64,000 nucleotides of DNA from Nesterenkonia sandarakina. GTDB taxonomy: Bacteria; Actinomycetota; Actinomycetes; Actinomycetales; Micrococcaceae. Of this stretch, positions 7,520 through 12,945 are shown one piece after another. The stretch spans positions 2,418,001 through 2,482,000 of the forward strand of contig NZ_JACCFQ010000001.1 in the NCBI RefSeq assembly GCF_013410215.1, read 5' to 3'. The position numbers and the translations under genes were made by a program. Numbering within the stretch: position 1 is the stretch's first letter; the number at the start of each line of letters is the position of its first letter. The notes under the pieces were generated by a model. That model did not search any database and was not told where the DNA came from. It saw only the letters and a list, made by a program, of their open reading frames with translations.

Positions 7520-8515
7520 TCAGCTCTGGGGCGACTCGTGGGGTCCGCCGGCGTGCTTGGCGATGTCCTCCCACTTCCAGGTGGTCCCCATCGCGTCATC
7601 GGAGGGGAACCATGCCCCGGTCGTCGCCCGATCCGGAGGAGTCGGCCCGGTGGCCCCCTGGCCGGAGACCGGCGCCTGATCCTTCAGCGCAGTCACCCGG
7701 TCCCGGATGGAGGCCATCTGCGCATCCAGTTCGGCGGCCTTCACGGCGGCGTCGCGGAGCTCATCGAGGATGTCCCCAGGGACCTCGCCGTCGTAGGTGT
7801 AGTAGATCTTGTGCTCCAGAGAAGCCCAGAAGTCCATCGCAACAGTGCGGATCTGGACCTCCACGTAGACGAACTCGGTGCGGTTGGAGAGGTAGACCGG
7901 GACCTGGACGATCACATGCAGGCTCTGGTACCCGTTGAGCTTGGGGTTGCGGATGTAGTCCTTGACCTCGACCACCCGCAGATCCGGCTGGCTGCAGAGC
8001 ATCTCCGCGACCCAGTAGGCATCGGAGACGAAGGAGCAGGTGATCCTGATTCCTGCGATGTCTCGGATGGAGTGCCGGATGCTCTCCAGTGTGGGTTCGC
8101 AGCCATAGCGCTGCACCTTGTCCAGGATCCGGTCCAGGGACTTCAGCCGGTAGTTCACATGCTCGATGGGGGAGTAGTCGCGGGTGTGTTCGAACTCCTC
8201 CCGCAGCACGTTGATCTTGGTCAGCACCTCATCCATGCCGAACTTATAGTGCAGCTGGAACTCGGTGAGCTGACGCCGGATGTCGACCATCCGGACCGCC
8301 ACCCCGTCGTTCTCCTCCCCGGCGCTGCTGTGCAGCTCTGAGAGCAGCTGCCGGTAGACCTCGGACTCGCTGCGCTGTGGCTTCTTCTCCGCAGGCGCCT
8401 GCGGGGCCAGATCCTTCCCGGGCGGCACCCGGAGCCTGGTGTTCAGCGAGACCTCGTCCGGGGCTTCAACGGGCAGAAACTGACTGTCTGTGGCAGGAGC
8501 GCGTCCAGCGGACAT
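7520..8515 (-). CDS. Small alarmone synthetase (RelA/SpoT synthetase domain)
   Basis: This GTP pyrophosphokinase family protein of 331 residues lacks HD hydrolase, TGS and ACT domains. The synthetase domain covers roughly residues 95-245, with YRLKSLDRILDKV, IRDIAGIRITCSFV, the substrate loop KDYIRNPKLNGYQSLHV, EVQIRT and MDFWASLEHKIYY. It would make (p)ppGpp from ATP and GTP or GDP. A disordered N-terminal tail of about 45 residues and a C-terminal helical tail flank the domain. GAGGAG precedes ATG 8515. It points away from the nrd operon and shares a 505-bp intergenic region with it. It resembles the RelQ/RelP class, but I cannot assign a subclass. Confidence 0.88.
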   Translation of the reverse strand: MSAGRAPATDSQFLPVEAPDEVSLNTRLRVPPGKDLAPQAPAEKKPQRSESEVYRQLLSELHSSAGEENDGVAVRMVDIRRQLTEFQLHYKFGMDEVLTKINVLREEFEHTRDYSPIEHVNYRLKSLDRILDKVQRYGCEPTLESIRHSIRDIAGIRITCSFVSDAYWVAEMLCSQPDLRVVEVKDYIRNPKLNGYQSLHVIVQVPVYLSNRTEFVYVEVQIRTVAMDFWASLEHKIYYTYDGEVPGDILDELRDAAVKAAELDAQMASIRDRVTALKDQAPVSGQGATGPTPPDRATTGAWFPSDDAMGTTWKWEDIAKHAGGPHESPQS

Positions 8516-8709
8516 GGGGGAAGTTCTCCTCTGGGGTCTCAGGATCTCACCACGGTGAGTCGTCGGTCACGGGACCGGTGCTTCGATTCTCGACCCTAAA
8601 CGCACTGGCTGTGAAGTCCCTCGAAGGCATGCCGGTGCGCGGTGGGTCTGCCCGCCGGATAGGCTGGACGCCGCAGCTCGGGCCCCAGAGGCTGCAGGGG
8701 AGACCTCAA

Positions 8710-8757
8710 CCACAACATCTGGTGAAAACCCGAGGACCCAGACGCAACATCTTCTTC
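8710..8757 (+). promoter_or_regulatory. Distal pair of NrdR-like boxes
   Basis: Box 1 (8710-8725) has the core CACAACATCTGGTG and box 2 (8742-8757) has GCAACATCTTCTT. Each matches about 10 of 16 positions of the NrdR consensus acaCwAtATaTwGtgt. Their equivalent bases are exactly 32 bp apart, the three-turn spacing expected for NrdR. The pair lies about 195 bp before the alarmone synthetase start and 264 bp before nrdH. Confidence 0.45.
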
Positions 8758-8821
8758 TCTGGGGCATCAGACACGCCGAGACACGCGCCGCTCACAGAAA
8801 CTTCTTCTTGGGAGTATCGGA

Positions 8822-8837
8822 CTCCACAGCTGTGGAG
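8822..8837. repeat. Perfect 16-bp palindrome CTCCACAGCTGTGGAG
   Basis: A perfect dyad with TCCACA in each arm. It shares TCCACAG with a second palindrome 64 bp downstream. It could be an operator; TCCACA is also the core of a DnaA box, though the flanks fit that poorly. Confidence 0.5.
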
Positions 8838-8886
8838 GAACGCCCAGTATGGGTGTCGGTTCCGCGTCATTGCAGGGGAGTCGCGG

Positions 8887-8903
8887 TCCACAGGTCCTGT
8901 GGA
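8887..8903. repeat. 17-bp hyphenated palindrome TCCACAGG-T-CCTGTGGA
   Basis: Perfect 8-bp arms around one central T. Its TCCACAG arm starts 64 bp (about six helical turns) after the equivalent arm of the first palindrome. It lies 29 bp upstream of the promoter-proximal NrdR-like pair. Confidence 0.5.
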
Positions 8904-8931
8904 GAGCCGGTGGAGAACTACACCGGTGCAA

Positions 8932-8979
8932 GTACATCATCTAGTGGCTGCTGATATCTGCAGACCCAAGATGTAGTAT
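8932..8979 (+). promoter_or_regulatory. Promoter-proximal NrdR-like box pair and nrdH -10 element
   Basis: Box 3 (8932-8947, core ACATCATCTAGTG) and box 4 (8964-8979, core CAAGATGTAGTAT) match about 10 and 12 of the 16 NrdR consensus positions and are again exactly 32 bp apart. TAGTAT at 8974-8979 fits a -10 hexamer and lies inside box 4, so NrdR bound there would cover the promoter. The predicted leader to the nrdH start is about 35 nt. Confidence 0.65.
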
Positions 8980-9020
8980 TGAGGCATAGCCAAAACGTCA
9001 CGTTCGAATCGGGGAGTCCC

Positions 9021-9272
9021 ATGTCTGTCACTGTCTACACCAAGCCCGCCTGCGTCCAGTGCAACGCCACTTACCGCGCCCTGGACAAGAACGGCGTGAC
9101 CTACGAGACCGTCGACATCACCCAGGATCCTGAGGCCCTGGAGCGGCTGCGCGGCCTGGGCTACATGCAGGCCCCCGTGGTCATCACCGAGGCCGATCAC
9201 TGGTCCGGATTCCGTCCCGACAAGATCTCCGAGCTGGCCGTACAGCACGCTGCGATCAGCTCGGTCGCCTGA
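9021..9272 (+). CDS. nrdH: Glutaredoxin-like NrdH redoxin
   Basis: This small redoxin of 83 residues delivers electrons to class Ib ribonucleotide reductase. The N-terminus [14 protein letters not shown] carries the redox pair Cys-Val-Gln-Cys, and the C-terminal half has the NrdH-type block [20 protein letters not shown] start it at ATG 9021 with GGGGAG at 9011-9016; an in-frame upstream extension to 8979 would run through the NrdR box and has no homologous look. It is the first gene of nrdHIEF and nrdI follows after 7 bases. Confidence 0.95.
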
Positions 9273-9279
9273 TGCAGCC

Positions 9280-9708
9280 GTGAACACCAGCGCACGGCTG
9301 ATCTACTTCTCCTCGGTGTCGAACAACACGCACCGCTTCGTGGAGAAGCTTCAGCGCGGGGCGGGGGAGGTCGCAAGGCTCCCACTGCGCACCAAGGATG
9401 AGACCCTGGCCGCGGAGCGCCCCTTCGTCTTGGTGCTTCCGTCCTACGGAGCCGACGCGGGCGAAGGCTCGGTGCCGAAACAGGTCATCAAGTTCCTCAA
9501 TGTCGAATCCAACAGGAACCTGCTGCGCGGAGTGATCGGCGCGGGCAACACGAATTTTCACGAGAGCTACTGCATCGCCGGGGACATCGTCGCCGCCAAG
9601 TGCCGAGTCCCTCACCTCTACAGATTCGAACTGATGGGCACCGCAGAAGACGTGGCCACAGTCGAATCGGGATTGGAAGAGTTTTGGAAACAGCAACCAA
9701 GCCATTGA
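9280..9708 (+). CDS. nrdI: Class Ib ribonucleotide reductase flavodoxin NrdI
   Basis: NrdI is the flavodoxin-like partner that helps build the dimanganese-tyrosyl radical cofactor of NrdF. The FMN phosphate loop appears as [16 protein letters not shown], followed by [22 protein letters not shown] and the NrdI-typical [16 protein letters not shown]. The 142-residue length is normal. The start is GTG 9280. The end runs close to or into nrdE, which fits tight translational coupling within the operon. Confidence 0.95.

Positions 9709-9749: not shown

Positions 9750-12945
<3,196 letters not shown>

Follow-up and report, generated by a model that had tools for sequence, protein, structure and literature searches.

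A conserved, half-degenerate second NrdR box pair upstream of the nrdHIEF operon in Nesterenkonia

The nrdHIEF locus and its four NrdR-type boxes

The window, by which we mean the whole 64-kb stretch of DNA analyzed here, belongs to a Nesterenkonia genome of 3.0 Mb and carries a class Ib ribonucleotide reductase (RNR) operon in the gene order nrdH, nrdI, nrdE, nrdF, all on the + strand. nrdH, which codes for a glutaredoxin-like protein, lies at 9021-9272 (Pfam Glutaredoxin, 7.1e-16), nrdI at 9280-9708 (Flavodoxin_NdrI, 1.4e-43), nrdE, for the class Ib large subunit, at 9750-11894 (Ribonuc_red_lgC, 1.3e-160; start codon placed by eye) and nrdF, for the small subunit, at 11971-12945 (Ribonuc_red_sm, 2.9e-95). 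The nearest named relatives of NrdE are those of N. aurantiaca (97%) and N. sandarakina (96%). A search for the RNR large subunit gave one match genome-wide, nrdE being the only one found, and there is therefore no nrdJ beside nrdR. The regulator itself is encoded in the genome: NrdR is a protein of 167 amino acids with a zinc ribbon, in which the N-terminal CxxC pairs CPYC and CPQC can be read, and with the only ATP cone matched genome-wide. Upstream of nrdH, a divergent gene on the - strand (7520-8515) codes for a protein with a RelA/SpoT domain (Pfam RelA_SpoT, 5.8e-31), probably a small alarmone synthetase, and is preceded by a promoter-like sequence, TTCACA-18-GAGAAT, at 8615-8586 on the - strand.

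NrdR is a repressor that, as a tetramer loaded with ATP and dATP, binds a pair of boxes separated by about three helical turns (PMC12051234, PMC9110341). Four boxes of this type, all read on the + strand, lie in two pairs upstream of nrdH. They were scored with a symmetric 16-bp matrix for which 19 distinct proximal pairs, all from other genera and all with a box 2 that fits A[GC]ATGTAG[TC][AG]T, were used, and the matrix is therefore not informed by Nesterenkonia. The proximal pair consists of GTACATCATCTAGTGG at 8932-8947 (score 18.8) and ACCCAAGATGTAGTAT at 8964-8979 (22.4), the best single box in the window. The latter contains TAGTAT (8974-8979), which reads as a -10-like element, in agreement with the annotated placement of this pair over a predicted -10; a sigma-70 scan of 8500-9040 reported no promoter on the + strand. 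The distal pair, 222 bp further upstream, consists of CCACAACATCTGGTGA at 8710-8725, with a score of 14.5 the third best single box in the window, and of the half-degenerate ACGCAACATCTTCTTC at 8742-8757, with a score of 4.1. The core of distal box 1 fits the published pattern by reading, and it shares 14 of its 16 bases with CCACAACATCTTGTGG, a box that precedes nrdR in this genome. The distance between equivalent bases is 32 bp in either pair, as had been annotated, and the distal spacer of 16 bp falls within the 15-17 bp that correspond to about three helical turns. When all pairs in the window are ranked at spacings of 30-34, the proximal pair comes first (41.2) and the distal pair second (18.7), while the best pair in the 64 kb made without any of these four boxes reaches 5.7; the distal pair thus stands far above background in the matrix scan that the initial annotation had proposed as a check. 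A score of 18.7 was reached by none of 2900 shuffles of the upstream regions of 29 genomes of the genus (maximum 10.1). Moreover, ACATCT-N26-ACATCT has a single exact match in the 3.0-Mb genome, the distal pair, and one further match with one mismatch elsewhere.

The two pairs are not of equal quality. The published definition of an NrdR box has C.[AT].A[AT].[AT].G in both boxes (PMC12051234). In a search of the + strand, which recognizes 125 of 168 proximal pairs, the proximal pair was the only match in the window, at 8935, with both cores fitting and a box distance within 14-17 bp. No strict match was obtained at the distal site, because box 2 fails at the last G of the core, which is replaced by C, so that one of the two C-G pairs recognized by NrdR is missing. 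Since box 2 lacks this conserved G, the earlier description of "two complete pairs" is too strong here: two separate NrdR-type pairs do exist, but the distal one is incomplete in this strain, and the four box scores are very unequal. The correct wording is one complete pair and one conserved, half-degenerate pair.

Conservation and distribution of the distal pair

For 29 genomes of the genus (a thirtieth had no nrdH match), the sequence preceding the proximal pair was compared over up to 400 bp, and distal pairs were counted if they scored at least 9.1, about the 99.9% point of the 2900 shuffles. The proximal pair is present in all 29. A second pair passes in 16, in 15 of them at a spacing of 32 and in one at 31, and two of these genomes lie close to the threshold (9.7 and 9.1); all 16 pairs are found 190-245 bp upstream of proximal box 1. 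When the spacing is varied from 20 to 45 as a control, 15 of the 29 genomes pass at 32 bp and 0-2 at any other value, except for 35, where the six genomes that pass do so through these distal boxes taken with an offset of 3 bp. Permuting the columns of the matrix 500 times never gave 16 of 29 (mean 0.5); the maximum, from one permuted matrix, was 14. A chance origin of the distal pair is rejected on the strength of the shuffles, the permuted matrices and the spacing control.

Among the nine closest species, 8 of the 10 core positions of distal box 1 and 9 of the 10 of distal box 2 are invariant, as against 1 of 16 in the spacer (8726-8741) and 6 of 70 in the 70 bp upstream; for the proximal boxes the figures are 14 of 16 (box 1) and 16 of 16 (box 2). 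The stretch from 8758 to 8931, downstream to the proximal pair, is also well kept (98 of 174 positions), because of the DnaA-like and GACAC elements described below. The footprint of the distal pair is therefore clear against the spacer and the upstream side, and not against the downstream stretch. An alignment of relatives had been proposed as a second check, with conservation of the proximal pair alone as the outcome that would mark the distal pair as chance; what we find instead is a distal pair conserved upstream of RNR operons in relatives.

Conservation of an imperfect box also bears on whether the distal pair could be the decaying remnant of a full second operator, non-functional since box 2 lost a contact base. 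Strict second pairs upstream of the proximal pair are found in 4 of the 29 congeners (0.06 expected), and also in one of the four genomes of another Micrococcaceae genus (g23). The four congeners with a strict pair, the 13 of 29 with no distal pair by threshold, and the score of just 4.1 for box 2 here speak for such decay. A remnant should drift, yet the half-degenerate core of box 2 is almost invariant beside a spacer that changes freely, and we consider this explanation unlikely.

The distal pair lies 95 bp from the promoter-like site of the divergent RelA/SpoT-domain gene, and might serve that gene, tying alarmone synthesis to dNTP pools. The gene is divergent in this clade, and 8 of the 10 genus genomes that carry it there also have the distal pair. 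However, the other two have no distal pair, and half of the 16 genomes that have one (8) are without the gene in the 1.5 kb examined. Moreover, in the clade with the gene the distance from distal to proximal pair is constant, at 221-222 bp, while that from the distal pair to the start of the RelA/SpoT-domain gene varies from about 160 to 234 bp. The distal pair thus appears to follow nrdH, and the RelA/SpoT-domain gene is not favored as its owner, a role that we regard as quite improbable.

Outside the genus we examined the upstream sequences of 139 of the 186 genomes searched, in 31 Micrococcaceae genera and taken mostly from the matches listed. One locus (L073) is without nrdH; five named loci (L035-L039) belong to genomes of the genus that had been included before, and enter neither the matrix nor the counts; two (L196, L201) have ambiguous sequence ends and were oriented by score; and three sequences with a proximal score below 20 were excluded from the element counts and the spacing control, leaving 136. 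At the same threshold a second pair is found in 15 of the 139: in 8 of 9 sequences of genus g22, 2 of 4 of g23, 2 of 3 of g21, and one each in g8, g14 and g16. Named loci with the paired form include those of Paeniglutamicibacter antarcticus and P. psychrophenolicus. Of the 136 sequences, 12 pass at a spacing of 32, whereas every other value from 18 to 45 gives 0-4. The pairs of g8, g14 and g16 are doubtful on inspection: those of g8 (L133) and g14 (L229) combine a strong box with a poor mate and are probably single boxes, and that of g16 (L174) reads as one long inverted repeat. A strong single distal box takes the place of the pair in 5 of 7 sequences of g32 and 3 of 8 of g10. In 22 of the 31 other genera sampled no distal pair was found, and no strong single box in its place; missing there as well as in 13 congeners, the distal pair is therefore dispensable. 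By eye, loci such as L218-L222 and L133 show one near-perfect distal box some 195-205 bp before the proximal pair, often with a half-box, for instance GCACTAC or GTACTAG, about 21-22 bp further on, possibly a different arrangement of boxes.

In a few relatives (for example L011, L030, L159 and L163) a distal NrdR-type box, inspected by eye, apparently forms the loop of a terminator-like inverted repeat, and further conserved elements adjoin the distal pair. The distal sequences might then be sites of another regulator, or parts of a terminator, that resemble NrdR boxes by chance. A terminator or hairpin at the distal pair is rejected for the window, since no terminator-like site is found in 8500-9040 and the pair shows no unusual fold; moreover, the matrix that detects the pair was made solely with proximal NrdR pairs, none of them from Nesterenkonia, and the spacing that the distal boxes prefer is that of NrdR. 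Of the alternatives considered here this is the least credible. Distal pairs above threshold amount to 31 of 168 upstream sequences, in a phylum other than that of Listeria, where a double NrdR operator is known. This one promoter comes in several natural forms, with a strict distal pair, a half-degenerate one, a lone distal box or none at all, and on such a series the role of a second NrdR site can be tested.

Elements between the pairs and other candidate NrdR sites

Between the two pairs lies GACACGCCGAGACACGC (8770-8786, + strand), invariant at 17 of 17 positions in the nine closest species and WhiA-like in having two GACAC motifs 10 bp apart, which begin at 8770 and 8780. In Streptomyces, WhiA footprints have GACAC as their core, and one of the places bound by WhiA is upstream of nrdR. 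In the 230 bp that precede the proximal pair, the word GACACGCC occurs in 27 of the 29 genus sequences (0.2 expected) and 116 of the 136 other Micrococcaceae sequences (1.8 expected); it is not a rare word, having six copies in the window on both strands. A GACAC motif at a conserved place and a whiA gene, the one match to HTH_WhiA in the genome, are consistent with a putative WhiA site. The motif is short and therefore a weak test for such a site, and the spaced-repeat GACAC pattern read backwards has equally many matches.

Three further elements resemble degenerate DnaA boxes: the palindrome CTCCACAGCTGTGGAG at 8822-8837, largely conserved and overlapping a two-mismatch nonamer at 8831-8839; the inverted repeat GTCCACAGGTCCTGTGGA at 8886-8903, also largely conserved and overlapping two-mismatch nonamers at 8884-8892 and 8898-8906; and GGTGGAGAAC at 8909-8918 on the - strand, conserved, replaced by GGTGGATAAC in several relatives, and with a two-mismatch nonamer at 8909-8917. 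No nonamer with at most one mismatch to TTATCCACA or TTGTCCACA is present in 8770-8931, which has the four at two mismatches. Within 160 bp upstream of the proximal pair, at least one nonamer with at most one mismatch is found in 22 of the 29 genus sequences and 132 of the 136 others, and the mean number per sequence is 1.14 in the genus, as against 0.09 after shuffling, and 1.98 elsewhere, as against 0.08. We also observed that the conserved inverted repeats of 8815-8925 fold better than shuffles as single-stranded DNA (z -3.5). The WhiA-like and DnaA-like elements are leads and not identifications.

NrdR-type pairs are also found before other genes. At L001:1303-1349 a pair with a score of 34.6 and a spacing of 31 bp precedes nrdR (ATG at 1363), and in 25 of the 30 genus genomes, this one included, nrdR is preceded by two boxes whose cores both agree with the published pattern, which suggests that NrdR controls its own gene. 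In the dnaA-dnaN gap of the same genome, which has three exact copies of TTATCCACA, the NrdR-like sequences ATCCCAGATCTTGTGG and GCCGCTCATATGGTGG form a candidate pair 31 bp apart (L136:4547-4593), 168 bp upstream of dnaN. Among the nine closest species, eight have an identical box 1; box 2 is mostly preserved, and the spacer is variable. Within the genus a single box of at least 12.7, the 99% point of shuffles, is found upstream of dnaN in 18 of 28 loci, and many loci have a second, imperfect box at 31 bp; scored as pairs, these sites are mostly weak. A family-wide pair at this place is rejected, the best pair in 30 genomes of other genera scoring only 4.6.

Together, the DnaA-like and GACAC elements and the candidate dnaN pair suggest that RNR supply may be tied to replication in Actinobacteria. 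A bolder proposal, and one that we put forward only tentatively, is that NrdR acts as a replication-wide nucleotide sensor in Nesterenkonia. The nrdHIEF control region would then be a composite, in which two NrdR operators enclose DnaA-type and WhiA-type sites, and NrdR would also bind the dnaA-dnaN pair, which is conserved and adjoins the DnaA boxes of the likely origin. If so, the dNTP level would jointly govern the synthesis of RNR and the activity of the sliding clamp or the origin. A literature search in which few subscription papers were covered found no report of NrdR at dnaN or of WhiA at nrdHIEF.

Proposed function and comparison with known NrdR systems

We regard the distal pair as very probably a true NrdR operator, if a weaker one. 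We infer NrdR binding at both pairs, and a regulatory effect of the distal one, from sequence and conservation; the site is probably functional, because it is kept in many related species, and its lower affinity is suggested by the missing G of box 2. In Streptomyces, inverting both conserved GC pairs of one box lowered binding 50-fold, and inverting one GC pair in each box lowered it close to 60-fold (PMC9110341). Given such losses, NrdR might bind the distal pair too weakly for any effect; since the imperfect box 2 is itself conserved, we expect a site of reduced strength and not the absence of one. The reading that we favor, and hold to be likely, is that nrdHIEF has a normal NrdR operator over the -10-like element and a weaker, auxiliary distal operator that would tighten or fine-tune repression. 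When dATP is plentiful, NrdR tetramers with ATP and dATP would occupy the proximal pair and obstruct RNA polymerase; as the level of active NrdR rises, they would fill the weaker distal pair too, and repression would be tightened or fine-tuned. Contact between the two bound tetramers, by the looping or higher-order binding that had been suggested, is possible. The distances between the pairs cluster modestly at 10.5 bp (Rayleigh p 0.0025), the test having used ten distances of our choosing, one per clade; since about 15% of periods picked arbitrarily from 8 to 13 bp show such clustering as well, helical phasing is not taken as evidence of looping.

The E. coli nrdAB promoter combines NrdR boxes with DnaA binding upstream of an RNR operon (PMC12176259, PMC4898720); in contrast, the DnaA-like repeats found here are degenerate, with none within one mismatch, and are known from sequence alone. 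The nrdRJ and nrdAB promoters of Streptomyces coelicolor share with the Nesterenkonia sites the conserved C and G nine bases apart (PMC9110341) and the two boxes about three helical turns apart, and an NrdR pair precedes nrdR here too; however, they are described with one pair per promoter (PMC9110341), unlike nrdHIEF. No report of a double NrdR pair in Actinobacteria was found in the same literature search, whose sole published double NrdR operator is that of Listeria.

In Listeria monocytogenes two NrdR pairs precede nrdAB; NrdR binds to each of them in vitro, the binding to the distal one being 5-10 times weaker (PMC12051234). Its authors call the arrangement atypical, which agrees with the annotated view that a single pair is the usual layout, and describe its role as unclear; they regard repression as probably more stringent when both pairs are bound and suggest that the second site may serve to fine-tune it (PMC12051234). 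The likeness extends to two pairs before one RNR operon, to a proximal pair that overlaps the site of RNA polymerase in Listeria and putatively does so here (over the -10-like TAGTAT), to the spacers (15-16 bp in Listeria, 16 bp here) and to a distal pair that is the weaker of the two, by binding in Listeria and by the look of the sequence here. Listeria belongs to a different phylum, and its RNR operon differs from the class Ib nrdHIEF found here; the half-degenerate distal box 2 and the DnaA-box-like and GACAC elements between the pairs are features of the Nesterenkonia region. By analogy, the explanation offered for Listeria nrdAB, more stringent or fine-tuned repression, would also fit nrdHIEF.
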